This document shows, piece by piece, positions 5,065 to 32,821 of a stretch of DNA of 36,338 nucleotides; position 1 is the stretch's first letter; every line of letters starts with the position of its first letter. The notes under the pieces are model-generated. The model had not been told where the DNA came from, searched no databases, and saw only the letters and a list, made by a program, of their open reading frames with translations. Origin of the DNA: Candidatus Gastranaerophilales bacterium. GTDB taxonomy: Bacteria; Cyanobacteriota; Vampirovibrionia; Gastranaerophilales; Gastranaerophilaceae. The translations under genes and the position numbers were made by a program. The stretch is from the NCBI GenBank assembly GCA_944323405.1, contig CALUSJ010000160.1:1-36338 (forward strand), written 5' to 3'.

Positions 5065-5093
5065 TTTACCCGCCTATTTTTTTTATGTAAAAT
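5065..5093 (+). promoter_or_regulatory. Promoter giving a leaderless ABC-transporter mRNA
   Basis: TTTACC (5065-5070), 17 bp, TAAAAT (5088-5093), then exactly 6 nt to the ATG at 5100. The predicted transcription start therefore coincides with the start codon. No Shine-Dalgarno sequence is present. Confidence 0.6.
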
Positions 5094-5099
5094 ATTCAT

Positions 5100-6839
5100 A
5101 TGTTTTTGAGTTCTTATAAAAAATTCTTTTCTTATTTTCAGAAAAATAAAAAATTTTTAAAATTATACTCATATCTATCTTTCATAGTAGGAGCCATTGA
5201 GCTTTTTGGGATTGCACTTACTTATCCCTTTGTTTTAAAGCTTCTTTCCCAACAACCATCCGAAAATATTCTTAACTCTCCTATAATAATCGGGCTAGGT
5301 ATTATTCTTTTATTTCTAGCTAAAAACATTTTAATGATATATTACACATACCTTCAAGCAAAATTCACAAAAGCTGTCGAAGCAGAAGTAAATCTTAGTT
5401 TTATGCGCTATTTCCTTGCAACACCGTATATGACGGGGATGAAAATTCCTCTTGCACAAAAAAGCAATATACTAAACTTTCTGATACCAAATGTTATTAA
5501 TAATTTTGTTCTAAGACTTCTAAACCTAAGAGTTAACTTTTTTATTTTTTGCTTAATTGCACTATTCTTAATAATAAAATTCCCTTTAGCCACAATCTTG
5601 ACTATTATTAGTTCCGTTGTATTAATATATATTCAAAACATCTTTTTTAAACCACGGCTGCGACAAAACGCCGAAAAAATGACAAAAACAAGCTTTATAT
5701 ATACGCAAAGAACAAATGAAGCAATTTTAGACATTAAAGCCGTTAAAATTTCTAACCACGAAATCTTTTTCTATAATAACTATAAATCTGCCATATTGAA
5801 TTATTATAAGACAGGAATTGAAACATTGTTCTTAAATACAATTCCACCGTACGTAACAGAGCCTTTTATTATAATTCTACTATTTATTCTCCTAAGCATA
5901 ATCTCTTGTCAAAGCTATAGTGAACCTGACAAGTTAATTGCATCATTTGCGGTTATTGTATCTGCAATATTTAGACTAGCCCCAACTATTTCCAGGCTAC
6001 AAGTTAATTTAAACGGAATAAACTCTTCTCTTCCAATTGTAGAAGAACTTTTAAAAATCTGCGAAAGTTTAGATATAAATAATACTAAAAAACTTGTTAA
6101 TAAAGAATTTACCCCGCTAAAATCTTCTATCGAGCTTAGAAATATTAATTTTGAATACGAAACTCATAAACCTGTTTTAAGAAATATTAATCTTACCATA
6201 AAAAAAGGGGAGTTTATAGGAATTGCAGGCCTCTCAGGAGCTGGAAAGTCGACTCTTGCTGATATTATTGCAGGACTATTAATACCCACAAGCGGTGAAA
6301 TACTAATCGACGGAGCAGTTAGTGAAAATCCTTTAAAAATTGGCTACATTCCTCAAGAATTCAACATTTTAAATGAATCAATAAAGAAAAATGTTATTTT
6401 CGGCTCTTCTTATGAAAACGATGATTTGGTCATTGATGCCCTAAAAAAAGCCCAATTATACGAATTTATTATTAATAATTACAAAGATGGAATAAACGCC
6501 AATCCTTTTGTAGATTCAACAGGTTTCTCACAAGGTCAAAAACAACGACTCGCAATTGCAAGAGCAATATACTCAAATCCAGATATTTTAATTCTTGATG
6601 AAGCAACTTCTTCACTAGATTTGAAAACAGAAAATGAATTTTGTAATGTCCTTAATAGTTTAAAAGGTGAAAAAACAATTATTGCAATAGCTCATAGACT
6701 ATCCACAATTAAATCCGCAGATAGAATTGCTTTTATGAAAGATGCCACAATAACAGATATAGCAGCTTTTGATGAACTCTACCAAAGAAGCGATGATTTC
6801 AGAGAGCTTATAAAGTTAGCTTCTATTAAATCCTCCTGA
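5100..6839 (+). CDS. MsbA-type ABC exporter (fused permease and ATPase)
   Basis: This 579-residue half-transporter has membrane helices in residues 1-320 and an ATPase domain after residue 340. The ATPase shows Walker A GLSGAGKST (near 380), the Q-loop in IPQEFNIL, signature GFSQGQKQR (near 475; the usual SGGQ reads SQGQ), Walker B ILILDEATSSLD (near 500) and the switch histidine in AIAHRLST. It should work as a homodimer, exporting a lipid, lipid-linked sugar or drug across the inner membrane. The substrate is not evident, although lipid-A or oligosaccharide flippases have this layout. The mRNA appears leaderless. The 3' end overlaps the convergent 50-residue gene by 14 bp. Confidence 0.9.
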   Translation: MFLSSYKKFFSYFQKNKKFLKLYSYLSFIVGAIELFGIALTYPFVLKLLSQQPSENILNSPIIIGLGIILLFLAKNILMIYYTYLQAKFTKAVEAEVNLSFMRYFLATPYMTGMKIPLAQKSNILNFLIPNVINNFVLRLLNLRVNFFIFCLIALFLIIKFPLATILTIISSVVLIYIQNIFFKPRLRQNAEKMTKTSFIYTQRTNEAILDIKAVKISNHEIFFYNNYKSAILNYYKTGIETLFLNTIPPYVTEPFIIILLFILLSIISCQSYSEPDKLIASFAVIVSAIFRLAPTISRLQVNLNGINSSLPIVEELLKICESLDINNTKKLVNKEFTPLKSSIELRNINFEYETHKPVLRNINLTIKKGEFIGIAGLSGAGKSTLADIIAGLLIPTSGEILIDGAVSENPLKIGYIPQEFNILNESIKKNVIFGSSYENDDLVIDALKKAQLYEFIINNYKDGINANPFVDSTGFSQGQKQRLAIARAIYSNPDILILDEATSSLDLKTENEFCNVLNSLKGEKTIIAIAHRLSTIKSADRIAFMKDATITDIAAFDELYQRSDDFRELIKLASIKSS

Positions 6840-9285: not shown

Positions 9286-9314
9286 TTCACAAACACGGCT
9301 TAAATGTGTATGAT
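9286..9314 (+). promoter_or_regulatory. Promoter giving a leaderless acyltransferase mRNA
   Basis: TTCACA (9286-9291), 17 bp, TATGAT (9309-9314), then 6 nt to the ATG at 9321. An upstream in-frame GTG at 9306 lies inside the promoter and so is unlikely to be the start. Confidence 0.6.
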
Positions 9315-9320
9315 ATTTAT

Positions 9321-10139
9321 ATGATAAATTTAGAGGATTTATATTCGGAAGTACCGCCTACTAAGTTGAGAAACATTGATGAGAAATTTCGTCCTGCACA
9401 AACATCGCCATTCTGGCTATGGGTTGCAGATCGATTCTTTTACGGAATGTTGGAAAACAGATTCTATGCTTTTCGTTATAAGGGTGCTGAAAATTTTTAT
9501 AATAAGGATCCTCAAACCCCGATTATACTTTTTGCTCCACATAGCAATTGGTGGGACGGTATTGTCGGATACAATATTTGTAATAGAATATTCAAAAAAG
9601 AAATCCGGCTTATGGTAGAAGAGCTAAACCGTTTTCCGCTTCTAAGACGCGGCGGTGCATTTAATGTTAACAAAAAATCTGCGCAAGCTTCTATGAAAGC
9701 GATACAGTATTCTGTAGAAATATTAGGCGATTCTAATAATATACTATACCTGTTCCCTCAAGGAATAATAAAACCGCCTAACCATAGACCTATCGAATTC
9801 CAGACAGGACTAACTTATATAGCAGAAAAAGCTGCTAAAAAATATGGCAAGGTAGCGCTCATGCCTATTGCAGTAAATTATATGTTTTTAAGAGACAACA
9901 GGCCCGAAGTTCTAGTTGAAATGGGAAAAGTTATAGAGCTTGATAATGACAAACCTAATCGGAAAGAATACTCTGAATATTTAGCAAAAACTTTAGAAGA
10001 CTTATGCGACAAACAGTTTTATGATATAAGCCAAGGGAATTTCAAAGGTTACGAAACGCTTTTCCAGAGAAAACTTAAGTGGTATCGCAGAATTGAACAG
10101 AGACTTAAAAAGATTGAAGTTAAAGGTTCGGGTGTTTAA
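9321..10139 (+). CDS. Lysophospholipid (1-acylglycerol-3-phosphate-type) acyltransferase
   Basis: This 272-residue protein of the PlsC/LPLAT superfamily has the catalytic HX4D motif H74-S-N-W-W-D79 in LFAPHSNWWDG. The substrate-binding block is FPQGIIKPP (145-153), a variant of FPEGTR. Such enzymes move an acyl chain to a glycerolipid at the inner membrane. The variant motif and the length are closer to the glycerol-acyltransferase-like branch than to classical PlsC, so the exact acceptor is unknown. The ATG at 9321 is chosen over the in-frame GTG at 9306 because the -10 box lies at 9309-9314. There is no Shine-Dalgarno sequence; translation is probably leaderless. Confidence 0.87.
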   Translation: MINLEDLYSEVPPTKLRNIDEKFRPAQTSPFWLWVADRFFYGMLENRFYAFRYKGAENFYNKDPQTPIILFAPHSNWWDGIVGYNICNRIFKKEIRLMVEELNRFPLLRRGGAFNVNKKSAQASMKAIQYSVEILGDSNNILYLFPQGIIKPPNHRPIEFQTGLTYIAEKAAKKYGKVALMPIAVNYMFLRDNRPEVLVEMGKVIELDNDKPNRKEYSEYLAKTLEDLCDKQFYDISQGNFKGYETLFQRKLKWYRRIEQRLKKIEVKGSGV

Positions 10140-10162: not shown

Positions 10163-10191
10163 TTTACCTATTTTTACCTTTTTGATATAAT
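10163..10191 (+). promoter_or_regulatory. Promoter of the lptF/G operon, with a TTTACC direct repeat
   Basis: TTTACC (10163-10168), 17 bp, TATAAT (10186-10191). The -35 is the first half of a direct repeat, TTTACC at 10163 and 10173, with the 10-bp period of an HLR1 box (A replaced by C at the sixth base of each half). The predicted start is near 10198, leaving about 6 nt before the ATG at 10204. Confidence 0.65.
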
Positions 10192-10203
10192 ATTCTGGAG
10201 CTG

Positions 10204-11331
10204 ATGATTAAGTTTATTAAGAATTTAATATATCAAATAGAAAATATGAAACTGCTGGACAAATATATTCTAAAGCAGGTCATTGAAATGTTTATAATGG
10301 GCGTTCTTGTCTTTACTTCAATCATTTTTGCCTCTGACACTTTCATCACCCTTATTAAACAAATTTCCATGTACGGTATACCGTTTAAAATCGCATTTTT
10401 AATTATAATACTACACCTTCCGGCTGTATTTGTGATGACAATTCCAATGGGTGTCTTATTAGCAACCGTTATGACACTGAACGGCCTGAGCTTAAGCTCA
10501 GAAATCACAGTCATGCGGGCTTGCGGAATCGGATTAAATCGAATTGCAAAACCTATTTTTATTTTTTCTATAGTCATGGCATGCGTAAGCTTTGTATTAA
10601 ACGAAACAGTTGTACCAGTCATGACTAAACAATCAACAGACCTTGCTCTTTATGCTTTCAGCAAAAAAAATATTCCTGAAGGAAAACATAATTTTACATT
10701 TAAGGAAGTCAAAGACGGGGGGCTGCTAAAACGCCTTTTCTATGTAGGAGACTGCACCGATAAACAATTACATAATATAACCGTTCTGGATGCATCAAAG
10801 GATGGTACAATCCAAATCCTTCAAGCAAGACAAGGTGCTACAACTCCCGAAGGGTGGAAGTTCCAAAAAGGTGCTATCTATACCATTACAGATAGCGGTA
10901 AAACACTTGATACAACACTATTTGAAGATTCTACCGTAAAATTCGGCATGGACTTATCCAAAGAAATGGATAGAAACCTCGCAAACGAGCATAACTTTAT
11001 ACAGCTATGTAAATTTTTGGCCAAGTCTGATGTTGATAAAAAGCAAGAATTGGAGATAAGTTTGTTTGATAAAATTGCACTGCCCCTAACTACAATTGTT
11101 CTTGTGCTAATAGGTGTTCCGCTTGCAATTACACCACCGAGAGTCAGATATAACAGGGGGTTTTTGTTTAGTATTTTGATTATTTTTGCCTATTACTTAA
11201 TAAGAGCTCTGTCTATATCATTCGGAGAAGCAGGTTCTCTTGCGCCTCTTCTTGCAGCATTTATGCCAAACATTATATTAACAATTATTGGCGTTGGACT
11301 TTATTACAGGAAAGTTTATACTATATGTTAA
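10204..11331 (+). CDS. LptF/LptG-family lipopolysaccharide export permease
   Basis: This 375-residue YjgP/YjgQ-family protein has three N-terminal and three C-terminal membrane helices around a periplasmic beta-jellyroll domain (about residues 150-275). Family signatures are LLDKYILKQ at the start of the conserved region and SLSSEITVMRACGI in the second cytoplasmic loop. In the LptB2FG complex this subunit extracts LPS from the inner membrane. Only one F/G gene is present here, as in cyanobacteria, where it probably forms a homodimer (inference). The start at 10204 lies just after the predicted transcription start; the ATG at 10246 is the conserved family start and a possible alternative. It is the first gene of a four-gene operon. 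Confidence 0.9.
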   Translation: MIKFIKNLIYQIENMKLLDKYILKQVIEMFIMGVLVFTSIIFASDTFITLIKQISMYGIPFKIAFLIIILHLPAVFVMTIPMGVLLATVMTLNGLSLSSEITVMRACGIGLNRIAKPIFIFSIVMACVSFVLNETVVPVMTKQSTDLALYAFSKKNIPEGKHNFTFKEVKDGGLLKRLFYVGDCTDKQLHNITVLDASKDGTIQILQARQGATTPEGWKFQKGAIYTITDSGKTLDTTLFEDSTVKFGMDLSKEMDRNLANEHNFIQLCKFLAKSDVDKKQELEISLFDKIALPLTTIVLVLIGVPLAITPPRVRYNRGFLFSILIIFAYYLIRALSISFGEAGSLAPLLAAFMPNIILTIIGVGLYYRKVYTIC

Positions 11332-14866: not shown

Positions 14867-16105
14867 CTAATACTTATTCGATAATTTCATAGCTTTATAT
14901 AGTTCAAATACACTTAATAAAAAGAATAATCCGAAAACAGCCAAATAAGAGAGATTAGAATAGACTAAAACATTTCCGTATTTCACCGGCTCAAAAATAT
15001 TTAACAAAAAACCGCTCACTGTACCTAAGATACCAACCATCATAAAGAAACAAAAATTCATAATACTTACGGCTGTTCCAGAAACCATTTTTCGGTTTGT
15101 CAAATGTAACACTGGAACAAGTATTGAAGTAAGGCTTGCATTACCTGCAAGTATAAAGAATAAAAGTGCAATTAGCTTTGTTCTAATATTTAGAATTAGG
15201 CAGATACATATACACAACAGAACCAAAAAAGTTATTACTGAAGCATTTTTGAGATAAAGCACCCTATGATTATGACATAACTTGCAAAAAGAAGCGTTTA
15301 CAATATTAAAAACAGCTGCTATTACTGCCATTATAGAAAGTATCATGGCAGCATCAGCTGACGACATCAAGCAAAAGTCTTCAAGAAACTTTTTCCCAAG
15401 TATTGCTTGCACAACATATGATATTCCAAAATTACAGCAGGCAAAGCTAAATAAATTACGATTATGTTTTTTATGTAAAACCAACCTAAACGGTAAAAGC
15501 CGCATTTTCACATTTTTATTAATAGGTTGATTTTCAACATGTTTTGTAAGGATATAAAATAACAAAGCCGCAAAAGATATTACACCGGCTAAAACAAATA
15601 AGCATTCTCTCCAGCTCATATATTTCATCGCAAAAACAAAGGGAGCATTAGCAGCTATCCCTCCGGCGTACCCTATAAAAAGCATTATAGAAATTGCAAT
15701 ACCAAAATCTTTTTCAGAAACGCATGCTTTAATTTCACGGATTAAGCTCAAATAAAACATACTTCCGCCCAGCCCTACTAGTGCTCTTGAAAAATACATT
15801 AGATACAGATTTGATGAAATCGGAAATAATAATGTTCCAAGAGCGAGTATAATTGCACCCGTCAGTATAACTCTCAGCCCGCCAAAACGTTCTACCATTA
15901 CACCAATAATTAATTGATTAAATGCATATATATACATAAATATTGCACCGAAAGCTGTAATATATGGAGCACTTAAGTTTAATTCGTGCTGAAGAACGTC
16001 AAATATTGCACCCGGAATTGCTATACGATGAAAATTAGCGAAAAAATAAAATAAACAACCTAAAAATATTAACGAAAATGATATCCAAGCCTTCTTAGTA
16101 TTCAT
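14867..16105 (-). CDS. Major facilitator superfamily transporter
   Basis: The 412-residue integral membrane protein has about 12 helices. The loop 2-3 motif is VERFGGLRVILTG (variant of the MFS motif A), and helix 4 reads FSRALVGLGGSMFYLSLIREI. The layout resembles the sugar-phosphate or organic-acid branch of MFS, but the substrate cannot be told from sequence. The frame is open to an earlier ATG at 16129, but that codon lies inside the promoter at 16114-16142, so I choose the ATG at 16105, which begins MNTKKAWISF. The mRNA would have a leader of 1-2 nt at most. The gene lies downstream of waaA, with its own promoter. Confidence 0.87.
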   Translation of the reverse strand: MNTKKAWISFSLIFLGCLFYFFANFHRIAIPGAIFDVLQHELNLSAPYITAFGAIFMYIYAFNQLIIGVMVERFGGLRVILTGAIILALGTLLFPISSNLYLMYFSRALVGLGGSMFYLSLIREIKACVSEKDFGIAISIMLFIGYAGGIAANAPFVFAMKYMSWRECLFVLAGVISFAALLFYILTKHVENQPINKNVKMRLLPFRLVLHKKHNRNLFSFACCNFGISYVVQAILGKKFLEDFCLMSSADAAMILSIMAVIAAVFNIVNASFCKLCHNHRVLYLKNASVITFLVLLCICICLILNIRTKLIALLFFILAGNASLTSILVPVLHLTNRKMVSGTAVSIMNFCFFMMVGILGTVSGFLLNIFEPVKYGNVLVYSNLSYLAVFGLFFLLSVFELYKAMKLSNKY

Positions 16106-16113
16106 AATGTAGT

Positions 16114-16142
16114 AAAATACTGCTAACAAATACTCTTGTCAA
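16114..16142 (-). promoter_or_regulatory. Promoter of the MFS gene, near-leaderless
   Basis: Minus strand TTGACA (16137-16142), 17 bp, TATTTT (16114-16119), then 8 nt to the ATG at 16105. The -35 box begins 4 bp after the waaA stop codon. Confidence 0.6.
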
Positions 16143-20227: not shown

Positions 20228-22792
20228 TTACTGTTCATCAGTCTCTATAATTGAAATTTGTTCGCTGTCAGCCATCTGTTCTACTGTGCATCCGCCTGAT
20301 ATACCAGCATCAGAACCATCAACATTTTCTTCTTTATCAGTATTTACAATCTTATTAACAGATACAACTGTATCATTATCAGTTAAGTTTTGAGCTCTTA
20401 CACCAGTTGCAGGACGTCCTTGGCAAGAAATATCTCCGGCTTTAATCCTTGTAACAATACCGTTTGCCGTTACAAGCATAATCTCATCACTTTCTTCTAC
20501 TATTGTTAAAGCTACTAGTCTTGACATATTTGACTTAAACTTAGTCGCAATAAGTCCTATTCCGCCTCTATTTTGAGTCCTGAATTCAGAAAGTTTTGTG
20601 CGTTTTCCAAAGCCATCAGATGTTACAACGAGGAGATCCGCATCATAATTCTTAGGAACAATATCACATCCGATAATTGTATCAGCAGCTCGAAGTTTCA
20701 TTGATGTAACCCCGCGAGCACTTCTTCCCAGCGGTCTCAAATCCTCAATAGGGAACCTTATCGCCATACCACAAGATGTACCGATTATTATTTCATCATT
20801 CGGTTTTGCCAATTTTACCCAATTGAGTCTATCGCCTTCTTCCAGAGATATTGCTATGATACCGCTTCTTCTAATGCTAGCAAAATTATCAAGCTCAATA
20901 CGTTTTATATAGCCTTTTTGAGTCAACATTATAAGATTTAGTTCGTGAGAGAAATTACTTACAGGAACAACCGCTGTAATAGTTTCACCCTGCTCAATCG
21001 GAAGCACATTTACTATAGGAAGTCCTTTAGATTGACGACCGCCTTCAGGGAAATCATATACATTCAGGCTATACACGATACCCTTTGAAGAGAAGAATAA
21101 CACCTTATCATGCATCATTGCGGTAAAGAAATGCTGAATATCATCATCATCTTTTGTTTTTATACCAGCTTTACCACGTGTTGCACGATTCTGACGCTCA
21201 AAAGTATCAAGAGCAATTCTCTTCAAATACCCTTGATGTGTAATAAACACTGCCATTGGAGTATTAGGAGTCAAATCCTCTATTGTAACTTCACCCTGCT
21301 CTGGAACAATTTGAGTTTTTCTGTCATCACCGTATTTTTCCTTGTCTTCAAGAAGTTCAGTCTTAATAATATCAAGAACTTTTTGTCTGTCTGCAAGAAT
21401 ACCCTCATATTCCGTAATCTTTTTGAGAAGTTCGTCATACTCATTCTTAATCTTATCTTGCTCTAAGCCTGTCAATCTTCTTAACTGCATTTCCAAAATT
21501 GCATTCGCTTGATCGACATCAAGCCCGAATCTGCTCATCAAACCAACTCTAGCATCATCCGTAGTTTTAGATTTTTTAATTAGTTCAATAACTTCATCTA
21601 AAGAGCCTAAAGCAATCAATAAACCTGCCAAAATATGAGCTCTGATTTTTGCTTTCTTTAAGAAATAAATAGTTCTTCTTGTAACAATTTCAACCCTATG
21701 TTCCACAAACTCATTCAAAACTTCATAAAGGTTAAGCAACCTTGGCTGTTTACCGCATAAAGTAACCATATTCACACCGAATGTTGTTGCAAGCTGTGTA
21801 TACTTAAACAGATTATTCTTAACAACTTCCGGCTTAGCGTCACGCTTTAGTTCAATTACAATACGCATACCGTCTCTATCTGATTCATCACGTAAATCAG
21901 ATATTCCATTTATTCTCTGCTCTTTGACTAAATCTGCAATTTTTTCAATCAACTGCGCCTTGTTAACCTGATATGGGATTTCTGTTACAATAATGGCCGT
22001 TCTTGTCTGTCTTCCGGCACCGCCCGGAATTTCCTCAATAGTCGCAACTGCTGACATCTTAATCGAGCCGCGGCCGGTTTCATAAGCTTGTTTTATATCG
22101 CTTAACCCAACTATTGTAGCAGCAGTCGGGAAATCAGGACCTTTAATATGTTCCATCAGCCCTTCAACCGTAATCTGCGGATTATCAATCAACGCAATAG
22201 TACCATCTACAACTTCTCTTAAGTTATGAGGCGGAATATTTGTTGCCATACCTACAGCAATGCCTGAAACACCGTTAAGAAGAAGCATCGGAAGCCTTAC
22301 AGGAAGTACAGACGGCTCTTCCAATGAACCATCAAAGTTCGGTACAAAATCAACCGTTTCACAATCTATATCTGCAAGCATTGATGTTGTAATCTTATGC
22401 ATTCTGGCCTCTGTATAACGCATTGCAGCAGCACTATCGCCGTCTACAGAACCAAAGTTTCCATGCCCGTCAACCACAAGATATCTTGTATTGAAATCCT
22501 GCGCCAAACGCACAAGGGCTTCATAAACAGAACTATCACCATGCGGGTGGTATTTACCTAAAACTTCACCAACAATACGAGCACATTTCTTAAACGGCTT
22601 GTCTGGAGTCATGCCCAATTCATTCATTGCATAGAGAATACGTCTATGTACAGGTTTTAACCCATCCCTTACATCAGGAAGCGCACGTCCTACGATTACA
22701 CTCATAGCATAATCTATATAGCACTTTTTCATCTCTTCTCTTATATTTACTGGAACAATTTTACCGTCTGAAAACATATTCTGCTGTGCCAA
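20228..22792 (-). CDS. gyrA: DNA gyrase subunit A
   Basis: This 854-residue type II topoisomerase subunit introduces negative supercoils together with GyrB. The breakage-reunion domain has catalytic R125-Y126 in [11 protein letters not shown]. The quinolone-resistance region reads [18 protein letters not shown]. coli S83 corresponds to S87 and D87 to E91, the acidic residue usual in many wild-type gyrases. The C-terminal beta-pinwheel is complete, with the GyrA-box-like [13 protein letters not shown] near residue 535, so this is GyrA and not ParC. The start is TTG at 22792, with AGAGGAG 8 nt upstream. The acidic tail is unusual in having two cysteines. gyrB is not in the window. Confidence 0.97.
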
Positions 22793-22826
22793 AATCTTTC
22801 TCCTCTATCCCGCTATAACTAATTAC

Positions 22827-22854
22827 ATGCTAGCACAAAAAAGAGCAGTGTAAA
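22827..22854 (-). promoter_or_regulatory. Candidate gyrA promoter
   Basis: Minus strand TTTACA (22849-22854), 16 bp, TAGCAT (22827-22832) preceded by TG (extended -10). The leader would be about 28 nt, including the AGAGGAG site. Confidence 0.5.
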
Positions 22855-22922
22855 GCAAGATATTATATAAAAATATTTTATATATACTTCTTAAATCCTT
22901 ATTTAATAAGTCTTTAAGGAGT

Positions 22923-22982
22923 GTAACATTTTTTTAAAAATAGGCAATTTTTTAAAACAAGATAACTTTATATATATGTAAG
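22923..22982 (+). promoter_or_regulatory. Shared-architecture promoter of an intergenic transcript
   Basis: GTAACATTT begins at 22923, GGCAATTTT at 22943, and TAACTTTATATATATGTAAG spans 22963-22982. This is the same order and exact spacing as at 7071-7012 on the other strand, with the last 17 bases identical. It points towards the decarboxylase gene and is followed by a terminator, not by a gene. Confidence 0.5.
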
Positions 22983-22984
22983 GG

Positions 22985-23128
22985 AAAAATGAAGAAAGTA
23001 AAAAGTTAGAAAAGCAATATAGATTAAATTTTAAATCGTAGTTTGTAACAAATATTACCCAATAAATATTCTCTCTTAATATCCTCGTGTTTATTTAATG
23101 TTTGCCATTTGCGGCAAACTTTTTTTTT
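22985..23128 (+). ncRNA. Candidate small RNA or leader transcript of about 145 nt
   Basis: The segment begins just after the 22923-22982 promoter and ends at an intrinsic terminator (23100-23128). The only translatable frame with a possible ribosome-binding site is six codons, MKKVKS, at 22989-23009, after AAGGG. The downstream decarboxylase gene has its own promoter after the terminator, so this looks like an independent small RNA and not its leader. Confidence 0.4.
23100..23128 (+). terminator. Intrinsic terminator in the gyrA-decarboxylase gap
   Basis: GTTTGCC (23100-23106) and GGCAAAC (23113-23119) pair perfectly around a 6-nt loop and are followed by nine T residues. The end of the T-tract runs into the -35 box of the next promoter. 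Confidence 0.85.
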
Positions 23129-23153
23129 GCATATTTATTATCTATGGTAAAAT
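23126..23153 (+). promoter_or_regulatory. Promoter giving a leaderless decarboxylase mRNA
   Basis: TTTGCA (23126-23131), 16 bp, TAAAAT (23148-23153), then 6 nt to the ATG at 23160. No Shine-Dalgarno sequence is present. Confidence 0.55.
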
Positions 23154-23159
23154 GCTCTT

Positions 23160-24188
23160 ATGAGTTTAGTTGCACTTTTGAAGAAAAAAAACAGAAAAAC
23201 ACTTTTTACAACCCCCAGCCATGCCGGAAATCTCTGCATAATGCACAAATTTTACCAGTGGTATCGCAGCGATATTTCTGAGGTAGAAGCCTACAATCCA
23301 CAGCAAGCTCTAGAAAAGGCTGAAAGTAAGGCTGCCAAAATATATGGAGTTAAAGAAACGCATTTTCTAACAAATGGTTCATCAAGTGGAATTATTGCAG
23401 CAATACTTGCTTGTTGTAATAAGGGAGATAACCTGCTTATTTGGGATAAAGCCCACCCATGCCATAAAAATGGCGGACTTTTAGCTGGAGCAAATATAAT
23501 TGAATATTCACTTGAATTTGACCAAGAATGGGGTATTTACAAGAAATTTGAAAATGCTGAAAAACTTCTTAAACAGCATAACCCAAAAGCTATAGTTATA
23601 ACATCGCCAAGTTATGAAGGTATCGTATCTGACATTCCAAAAATCAGTAAAATATGTAAAAAATTTGGTGTCTATCTTATTGTAGATGAAGCACACGGTG
23701 CATTATACCCATTCAGCCAAAATTTACCTGAAAGCGCAGTAACGTATGCCGATTTTACGGTTCAATCTTTGCATAAAACGGCAGGAGGAATTAATCCGAC
23801 AGCTCTTTTACACTCAAATTGCGATTCAGATATCAAGACCAAACTCAATATGATAACAACAACCTCACCTTCATACCCTATGCTCGCAACAATAGAAGCA
23901 AATATAAATTATCTTAACTCTAAAAAAGGCCGCAACAAGATAGAATCTCTTATTTCTGAAATTAAGAACATAAGAGAAACTCTTACAAACATTGAGTTCT
24001 ATGGAGACGACCCCACAAAAATCCTCATGAAAAAAGAAGGTCTATCTGGCTATGAACTTTCTGATATTCTTTTTAACAGGTACAACATTGAAGATGAGCG
24101 CACGAACGAAAAATCTACAATGCTTCTTACCGGCTTAGGGACAAGTCAAGCTAAACTTAGAAAACTCCGCTATTTAATCAAACTTTGA
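23160..24188 (+). CDS. Orn/Lys/Arg decarboxylase-like PLP enzyme, short form
   Basis: This 342-residue fold-type I PLP protein resembles the major domain of ornithine/lysine/arginine decarboxylases. It has TPSHAGN near the start (19-24), FLTNGSSSGI (69-78), the DEAHGA motif (176-181, D176 contacting the PLP ring) and the Schiff-base lysine K206 in QSLHKTAGG. Family members are usually about 460-490 residues; this one lacks most of the C-terminal domain, so activity on a basic amino acid is uncertain. The ATG at 23160 follows the -10 box by 6 nt, suggesting a leaderless mRNA. The 3' end overlaps the convergent isochorismatase gene by 19 bp. Confidence 0.83.
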   Translation: MSLVALLKKKNRKTLFTTPSHAGNLCIMHKFYQWYRSDISEVEAYNPQQALEKAESKAAKIYGVKETHFLTNGSSSGIIAAILACCNKGDNLLIWDKAHPCHKNGGLLAGANIIEYSLEFDQEWGIYKKFENAEKLLKQHNPKAIVITSPSYEGIVSDIPKISKICKKFGVYLIVDEAHGALYPFSQNLPESAVTYADFTVQSLHKTAGGINPTALLHSNCDSDIKTKLNMITTTSPSYPMLATIEANINYLNSKKGRNKIESLISEIKNIRETLTNIEFYGDDPTKILMKKEGLSGYELSDILFNRYNIEDERTNEKSTMLLTGLGTSQAKLRKLRYLIKL

Positions 24189-31072: not shown

Positions 31073-31843
31073 TTATCGAGCTCTTTGAGGATTTGCAAAT
31101 TTCAAAGTTCCATCTCTTGGAGTAACTCTTTCTACACCATTACAGTTTACCAAGTTTCCGAGCGAGCCTCTAATTGTACAAAAAGCACTACGATAATTTG
31201 TATATACAATATGCTGATAGTCAAATGTATTCTGGCGGACAGCGTTGGTTCTACCTACACGCCCATCATCAATATAAACAGTTAGTAAATCCCTGCGGTT
31301 AAGAATATCAGTACTATTTCCAACAGTAACTGGTACTAAATATCCGCTGTCATCATCTATATATGCAAACAATGCAACTGCGTATCCGTTATTATCTCTT
31401 GTTTTTCTTTGAGGAACAATCATTGTTATAGGGATTGCATTTGCGACACCAGCTCCCGCTGCAACACCGTTAAGTCCTTCATTTAAAACGCTTGGATAAT
31501 AGTATTTTATACCATTCACTGCATAAATAAAGGAATCAGCACCTCCTGGTGCAGGCCATCCAGCAGGAACATCCACATCTTCAGGATCTTCGCTCTCGAT
31601 TTCTTCCGAATGTAAAACATCGTGCACATGAGTCATTATCTGTTGATTTGATGGTTCTTCAGCAGAAGCAATTGCATCTGCTATTGCATTATACAAACTA
31701 ATGTATCCATTATAATAAAACAGATCATAAGCCCTATCGGCACCGTGTTTAGCTATTGTCATACCCATTGCTGAAACTATTCCGATAATTGCAACGCAAA
31801 GAAGCAATTCTGCTAGCGAAAATGCTGATTTAAATTTTCTCAT
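31073..31843 (-). CDS. Type IV pilin-like (pseudopilin) protein
   Basis: About 256 residues with a class III (prepilin) signal: a basic leader MRKFKSA, then FSLAELLLCVAIIGIVSAMG. Cleavage would fall between A and F, with the conserved Glu at +5. A gives way to the usual G at the cleavage site, which is tolerated. The rest is a predicted periplasmic domain with two late cysteines (CTIRGSLGNLVNC) that could form the C-terminal disulphide loop typical of pilins. The ATG at 31843 has GGAG about 10 nt upstream. It overlaps the upstream DUF3326 gene by 14 bp. No pilus assembly genes are nearby. Confidence 0.85.
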   Translation of the reverse strand: MRKFKSAFSLAELLLCVAIIGIVSAMGMTIAKHGADRAYDLFYYNGYISLYNAIADAIASAEEPSNQQIMTHVHDVLHSEEIESEDPEDVDVPAGWPAPGGADSFIYAVNGIKYYYPSVLNEGLNGVAAGAGVANAIPITMIVPQRKTRDNNGYAVALFAYIDDDSGYLVPVTVGNSTDILNRRDLLTVYIDDGRVGRTNAVRQNTFDYQHIVYTNYRSAFCTIRGSLGNLVNCNGVERVTPRDGTLKFANPQRAR

Positions 31844-32786
31844 ACTGTAAAAGCTCCATAATTTCTTCATATGTATTTATTATATCACATGTTAATAAAA
31901 ATTTCTCGGGTGTTACATCCAAAATAGTCTTGTTTTCTTTTACTGCAAATATTTTTTTTCTGCGTTTTGTCATTTCTAGTACTGGAATACACCCAATTGA
32001 ATCATATGGAATTATCAGAAAATCAATGTTATCAACACTTAGACCTGTATTAGAAATTTTAGGAGCCTGATTTAATCCTAACAATATACAAGGTAAAAAT
32101 GTTGGTGTAATATATTCTGCTGCACATCTTCTATCAACAATCTTGGTTGAAATATTTATATCATCGAATGCCGGAGCATGTGCACACGGAATTTTAAATT
32201 CCTTTGATATATAGTGAGAAATAATTGCTTCAACTCCTCCTACAGGATCAACCCCTATGCCTGAAGCATAATCTTCACTTTCATCTTCTGGGAATCTGCA
32301 TACAATTGCAATTGCATCCGCACCTCTTTGAATTAAATGTTGAGCTGAAGTTTTTAATGTATCCAAATTACTAACAGTACCTGTTGAAACACCTGATTTG
32401 TCAATAAAAAATTCAACACCAACAGGCTCAGCTGTAATTTCATATCCAACTATATCAAGCCCATAAACCATTTCTACAGCATTTATTGTATTTATATGAA
32501 CATTCAGAACTTCTTGAGTTATTGATCTGTCAAAAATAACCCCAATTTTGTTTCTACAAGAAGGCTCTAGTGCAAGCTTACCCTTAAAAAACTCATCTAG
32601 TGTATAGCCTTCTACATAAAGCATGTTATCACTAATCCCAGAAAAACATGCTGCATTGACAACATTCGGATTCACTATCAACCTAGTATATTGTGCAAAT
32701 TTTCTTGCCCATAAACTTGCATCTCCAGCGTACCCACCTATAGAGGCTCCAATGCCGGTTGGAATTATAAATGCGCCTGTTTTCAT
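31830..32786 (-). CDS. DUF3326-family protein
   Basis: This 318-residue soluble protein starts MKTGAFIIPTGIGASIGGYAGDA, the conserved N-terminus of DUF3326, a family I know mainly from cyanobacteria and plants. Other conserved blocks are VNPNVVNAACFSG, RGADAIAIVCRFPEDE, DPVGGVEAIISH and PCAHAPAF. No biochemical function is established to my knowledge. The start at ATG 32786 lies 6 nt after a TATAAT box and has no Shine-Dalgarno sequence, so the mRNA is probably leaderless. Its 3' end overlaps the pseudopilin-like gene. Confidence 0.88.
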   Translation of the reverse strand: MKTGAFIIPTGIGASIGGYAGDASLWARKFAQYTRLIVNPNVVNAACFSGISDNMLYVEGYTLDEFFKGKLALEPSCRNKIGVIFDRSITQEVLNVHINTINAVEMVYGLDIVGYEITAEPVGVEFFIDKSGVSTGTVSNLDTLKTSAQHLIQRGADAIAIVCRFPEDESEDYASGIGVDPVGGVEAIISHYISKEFKIPCAHAPAFDDINISTKIVDRRCAAEYITPTFLPCILLGLNQAPKISNTGLSVDNIDFLIIPYDSIGCIPVLEMTKRRKKIFAVKENKTILDVTPEKFLLTCDIINTYEEIMELLQYEKI

Positions 32787-32792
32787 AAAACA

Positions 32793-32821
32793 ATTATATT
32801 ATACAAAGATTTAACTGTCTA
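32793..32821 (-). promoter_or_regulatory. Promoter giving a leaderless DUF3326 mRNA
   Basis: Minus strand TAGACA (32816-32821), 17 bp, TATAAT (32793-32798), then 6 nt to the ATG at 32786. This is one of the strongest promoters in the window by match to consensus (11 of 12). Confidence 0.7.

Follow-up and report, generated by a model that had tools for sequence, protein, structure and literature searches.

A conserved -10 box six nucleotides before ATG points to a minority class of leaderless genes in Gastranaerophilales

Four genes in a contig of a Candidatus Gastranaerophilales genome are very probably leaderless, belonging to a class in which a sigma-70-type -10 box lies 6 nt, less often 7 nt, before the ATG. 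Such genes appear to form a conserved minority in this lineage and in some non-photosynthetic relatives, and the photosynthetic cyanobacteria sampled do not appear to share it. Leaderless initiation is already well known, and with a spacing of 6 nt the +1 position in a sigma-70 promoter falls on the A of the ATG. RNA polymerase would start at the A of the start codon, or within about one nt of it, and the ribosome would accept the leaderless mRNA by its 5'-terminal AUG, in place of a Shine-Dalgarno (SD) sequence. This AUG could be recognised by 70S or 30S-IF2 complexes, as is known from other bacteria.

Promoter boxes at gene starts of the window

The window, i.e. the whole stretch of 36,338 nucleotides analysed, is contig C160 of a genome of 172 contigs and 1.76 Mb. 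The features considered are the following:

5088..5093, + strand, -10 box TAAAAT, with spacer ATTCAT, 6 nt to the ATG at 5100
5100..6839, + strand, ABC transporter gene (PF00005), predicted leaderless, its start fixed by the box
9309..9314, + strand, -10 box TATGAT, with spacer ATTTAT, 6 nt to the ATG at 9321
9321..10139, + strand, acyltransferase gene (PF01553), predicted leaderless
10186..10191, + strand, TATAAT, 12 nt before the ATG at 10204
10191-10196, + strand, weaker TATTCT, 7 nt before the ATG at 10204
10204..11331, + strand, LptF/LptG permease gene (PF03739), an atypical copy in a family predicted to be predominantly leaderless
16137..16142, - strand, TTGACA, 17 nt from the TATTTT box of the MFS gene
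16114..16119, - strand, TATTTT, 8 nt before the ATG at 16105 (MFS gene), a weak case
23100..23129, + strand, terminator-like hairpin and T run, stem end 40 nt before the ATG at 23160
23145..23153, + strand, extended -10, TGG-TAAAAT, with spacer GCTCTT, 6 nt to the ATG at 23160
23160..24188, + strand, PLP-dependent decarboxylase-like gene (PF01276), predicted leaderless
32793..32798, - strand, -10 box TATAAT, with spacer TGTTTT, 6 nt to the ATG at 32786
31830..32786, - strand, DUF3326 gene (PF11805), predicted leaderless

The four spans of box, spacer and ATG can be read directly at 5088-5102, 9309-9323, 23148-23162 and, on the - strand, 32798-32784. The claim of the initial annotation that a -10 box ends exactly 6 nt before the ATG at 5100, 9321, 23160 and 32786 (- strand), with an SD sequence absent at all four starts, is confirmed to the base, and the spacings of 8 nt (TATTTT) and 12 nt (TATAAT) given for the MFS and LptF/G genes also read as described. 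Geometry accounts in part for the missing SD, since a box at -12..-7 leaves little space for an SD at -14..-5. Other window genes, for instance four on the - strand with starts at 1243, 4232, 5014 and 7465, carry a strong SD.

The box also bears on the choice of start codon. The GTG at 9306, which a mechanical call gives as the acyltransferase start, is not favoured because the box falls inside that extension, and SD-oriented gene callers could misplace starts of this kind. The idea that these promoters guide the assignment of start codons held up in the genome-wide and orthologue tests, and the box is a tested sequence criterion for start-codon correction in a large uncultured gut lineage.

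Spacing of -10 boxes across genomes

Boxes of the form TAnAAT, TATnAT or TATAnT before ATG were counted at each spacing, spacings 3-5 and 8-10 serving as controls. ORFs of at least 100 aa were retained by greedy overlap removal, a simple rule with no gene finder, and a strict SD was defined as AGGAG, GGAGG, GGAG, GAGG or AGGA at 4-10 nt. The samples were 571 kb of the source genome (463 ORFs), 400 kb of G006, a member of the same family (341 ORFs), and the photosynthetic control G217 (324 ORFs), the stretches of G006 and G217 being evenly spaced. Part of the contigs of the source genome had been chosen for a TATAAT-N6-ATG match, which biases the count in favour of the finding, and 20 others had been chosen without a listed match, which biases it against.

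The initial annotation had suggested scanning genes that have no SD for a -10 box at 6 nt, and the counts in these samples peaked at this spacing. In the source genome there were 38 boxes at spacing 6 and 15 at spacing 7, versus a mean of 5.7 at the control spacings (Poisson P of 3e-19 and 8e-4, respectively). The 20 contigs without a listed match had 6 and 7 boxes versus 1.8, and G006 had 28 and 11 versus 5.8 (P of 3e-11 for spacing 6). No peak was present in G217, with 2 boxes at spacing 6 and 4 at spacing 7 versus 4.7; there, -10-like boxes were most frequent 26-29 nt before ATG, which suggests that leaders of about 20 nt are preferred in that genome. At GC near 33%, TATAAT-like hexamers could be found everywhere by chance, and background matches do occur at every spacing. 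The excess is nevertheless specific to one spacing, it recurs in all 85 genomes of the family and the box is conserved in orthologues (see below), so that the probability of a chance origin is practically negligible; the spacing controls and a reversed-box control lead to its rejection. The reversed box itself gave a mild peak at 6 (18 in the source genome), in part since TATTAT is unchanged by reversal.

The excess at spacings 6 and 7 corresponds to 9.0% of ORFs in the source genome, 7.4% in its 20 contigs without a listed match and 8.0% in G006, with none in G217. Among divergently headed genes, a box at 6 or 7 nt precedes 31/154 in the source genome and 20/134 in G006, against 5-8 and 8-10, respectively, in two-spacing controls, a leaderless-type share of roughly 8-16%. 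The proposal that leaderless mRNAs are a common class stands as regards a real excess but not as regards its size, since the class is a minority, some 7-9% of the ORFs counted (100 aa or longer). An SD candidate was present in about half of the ORFs of the source genome (229/463), which supports the view that two initiation modes exist side by side, and at none of its 53 starts with a box at spacing 6 or 7, a null count partly forced by geometry.

The peak is confined to ATG, being absent at GTG and TTG starts; in E. coli, leaderless mRNAs have likewise been reported to be restricted to ATG (PMC9031893). Two further marks of the class were considered and are unsupported genome-wide. A TG one base upstream of the hexamer, as in a general extended -10, was found at 15/38 spacing-6 boxes of the source genome and 6/28 of G006, and a strong -35 is only somewhat commoner at spacing 6 than in shuffles (at least 4/6 matches to TTGACA in 42-43% versus 27%). 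In a Pfam scan of 20 box genes of the source genome (+ strand of their loci), 14 had at least one match, including ABC ATPase, PIF1-like helicase, EamA transporter, Mur ligase, outer membrane efflux protein, BioG, RuvC, NanE and thioesterase, and no functional theme was evident among the 20.

The mRNA could also begin at the ATG next to the box and be translated from a downstream SD-bearing start, the start calls then being wrong. Three of the 52 box genes of the source genome do have an SD-bearing candidate at most 90 nt from the leftmost start, but the other 49 do not, and Pfam matches lie near residue 1 in several box genes (BioG 1-199, RuvC 3-151), which makes this reading very improbable.

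Conservation in orthologues

For each family the 30 best matches from searches over 60 genomes were aligned, the window copy included (15 loci were taken for the MFS gene), and in all families the ATG nearest the aligned start was used. The 31 orthologue loci of the gene at 23160 come mostly from Candidatus Gastranaerophilales or Melainabacteria. TANNNT lies at exactly 6 nt in 25 of them and in the window (26/32 rows), and the upstream TG and A-8 are invariant in all 26 rows with a box at this distance. The spacer has an identity of 0.40, equal to that of the flank at -60..-31 (0.40). The DUF3326 gene has the box at 6 nt in 27/30 best rows, and the acyltransferase gene in 19/30, with 6 more at 7 nt. 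Six acyltransferase rows (L117-L120, L128, L129) have GGAG directly 5' of the -10 box, 12 nt from the ATG. This GGAG may be an SD at a distance, a variant of the extended -10 or another element.

The LptF/G gene had been ranked as the weakest case in the initial annotation. Its window copy is indeed atypical, but the family is among the most consistently leaderless by prediction, with the box at 6 nt in 22/30 best rows and at neither 6 nor 7 nt in only 2/30. Two families count against a leaderless reading. In the ABC family both patterns occur: 8/30 best rows (window included) have a box at 6 nt and 10/30 a strict SD, so that the gene at 5100 would be leaderless in some relatives but SD-led in others. 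In the MFS family an SD predominates (8/14 rows, against 1/14 with a box at 6 nt); the orthologues do not keep the box, and the MFS gene at 16105, which had been counted with the class, is rejected as a conserved member.

Across three families, pairwise identity was 0.78-0.85 in the box, 0.31-0.40 in the spacer and 0.33-0.47 at -60..-31; the rows were defined by TANNNT in the box, and A-8 is also near-invariant. The spacing is kept when the start codon moves. DUF3326 start codons shift up to 24 nt in the protein alignment among rows with a box, and those of LptF/G up to 57 nt (-24 to +33, all rows), the box moving along. A fixed length between box and ATG amid diverging sequences is, from these alignments, not explained by shared ancestry alone. 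Together, the orthologue and genome-wide tests support the leaderless reading proposed for the four core genes.

Operon position and signs of transcription start

Five orthologues of the gene at 23160 (L019, L020, L023, L026 and L027) lack a box at 6 or 7 nt. Only these five have a same-strand ORF ending at most 8 nt from the start, and they appear to sit inside an operon. Where the box lies at 6 nt (25 loci), no same-strand ORF of at least 80 aa ends closer than 49 nt, and in L024, with a box at 7 nt, one ends 47 nt away.

A pyrimidine is expected directly before a transcription start. T occupies position -1 in 53/66 spacing-6 starts (source genome and G006), compared with 51% of 342 SD starts, 57% of 110 controls at other spacings and 47% of 194 further leftmost starts (Fisher P of 1e-5, 0.002 and 3e-6, respectively). 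This excess fits transcription that begins at the A of the ATG. In addition, 14/30 DUF3326 rows (shuffled mean 0.0) have a terminator-like hairpin whose end lies 15-34 nt from the ATG, in 10 of the 14 at 15-20 nt, so close that little room would be left for a leader. Such hairpins are rare in the acyltransferase (0/30), ABC (2/30) and LptF/G (1/30) families.

The boxes may be real promoters that give very short leaders (1-5 nt) and scattered 5' ends rather than strictly leaderless mRNAs. The smaller peak at spacing 7 (15 in the source genome, 11 in G006) would agree with this, as would the 8 and 12 nt of the MFS and LptF/G genes in the window and the few acyltransferase relatives whose nearest -10-like hexamer, judged by eye, lies 10-11 nt from the ATG (L112, L115, L116, L122 and L131, 5/30). 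However, spacing 6 is dominant, spacings 8-10 are near background and the T at -1 suits a start at the A of ATG, so that short leaders are a possible but rather less likely reading. Alternatively, the AT-rich hexamer could aid translation as an unstructured or S1-binding leader, with the promoter farther upstream; AT-rich upstream signals are indeed described in other SD-poor bacteria (PMC3160421, PMC5397173). A leader of this type is hard to reconcile with the fixed spacing and TANNNT specificity, with the loss of the box where the gene is operon-internal, and with terminator-like hairpins directly 5' of the box. The photosynthetic control also has no such signal, although its genes are mostly without a strict SD too. 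A translational role of the hexamer is therefore quite improbable, and the box is preferably read as the promoter of a leaderless mRNA.

Relation to known leaderless genes

Known leaderless genes have this same architecture (PMC3160421, PMC12340547). Zheng et al. (2011, PMC3160421) describe 'TA-led' leaderless genes with TANNNT about 12 bp before the start codon and no SD, in which high-GC Actinobacteria and Deinococcus-Thermus are rich. The window genes share with them the position of TANNNT, the absence of an SD and the coexistence with SD-led genes, and TANNNT with a 6-nt spacer is in genome-wide excess here. In that work many Cyanobacteria are described as having neither SD-led nor leaderless genes, whereas the present non-photosynthetic lineage appears to use both modes.

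In Deinococcus-Thermus, a -10 motif at a strict spacing to the ORF served to correct start codons, and experiments demonstrated that it drives leaderless transcription (PMC12340547). The strict spacing is common to both cases, here from sequence alone. About 30% of ORFs are concerned in Deinococcus-Thermus versus about 7-9% here, where the GC content is low and the boxes are mostly TATAAT-like. The GeneMarkS-2 classification includes a class with frequent leaderless transcription, for instance Mycobacterium tuberculosis, and gives Cyanobacteria as an example of an unknown initiation signal (PMC9581028). In the former class, as here, a promoter box replaces the ribosome binding site in part of an SD-using genome, a likeness drawn from the description of the class. 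The open-licence PMC literature yielded no paper on leaderless genes in Gastranaerophilales or Melainabacteria. Judged by listing and beginning of abstract, none of the papers found on transcription starts in Gastranaerophilales or on SD sequences in Vampirovibrio seemed relevant, and none of those found on leaderless genes in uncultivated gut bacteria concerned this lineage. A conserved minority leaderless class in Gastranaerophilales, and its contrast with photosynthetic relatives, are, as far as this literature goes, apparently new.

Distribution across Cyanobacteriota

TATAAT was counted at spacing 6 versus spacing 12 before ATG, a pattern count that alone does not prove leaderless starts. 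The family of the source genome had 9861 versus 4441 matches (higher at spacing 6 in 85/85 genomes), and the class outside this family 2321 versus 1468 (71/79). No enrichment was found in a group of 88 genomes from the rest of the phylum, which leaves out this class and the Photo_RC-negative families (2620 versus 2563; higher in 43/88).

Photo_RC (PF00124) was sought in 35 genomes, among them 12 of the 88 of the rest of the phylum. It was present in 12/35, all in the rest-of-phylum group, and absent in 23/35, including every sampled genome of families f3, f5, f9, f12, f13, f16 and f19. The enriched Photo_RC-negative families, all three outside the class, were f5 (213 versus 73), f9 (24 versus 3) and f13 (36 versus 6); f16 (2 genomes, ratio 1.01) and f19 (1 genome, no matches) showed no enrichment, and f3 and f12 had too few matches to tell. 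Family f46 (2 genomes, ratio 0.96) was not enriched either. The f16 genomes, G088 and G098, lack Photo_RC and have many TATAAT sites without an excess at spacing 6, an exception to the pattern.

Non-photosynthetic relatives appear to use leaderless and SD modes together. A mixture of both might, tentatively, be the ancestral state of Cyanobacteriota, kept in non-photosynthetic lineages and lost in photosynthetic Cyanobacteriia; the enrichment pattern could also come from gains that were independent of each other, from a broad change in promoter use or from AT content. These data make it testable whether SD-poor cyanobacterial initiation arose after the split from non-photosynthetic relatives. 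The anti-SD pattern GGNTCACCTCC had matches, which may or may not lie in 16S rRNA, in 13/19 genomes searched, the source genome having two.

Other observations in the window

In the stretch 22793-23129, the hairpin at 23100-23129 lies on the + strand though the only adjoining gene (20228-22792), gyrase/topoisomerase subunit A-like by eye, points away from it. There could be a small RNA or a short ORF in 22820-23100; a search of the whole window against Rfam gave no match. A pilin-like gene on the - strand overlaps the end of the DUF3326 gene (31830-31870), and its first ATG, at 31870, has TATAAT 8 nt upstream. The true start of this gene may instead be an internal ATG that has GGAG upstream and gives a more typically prepilin-like N terminus.
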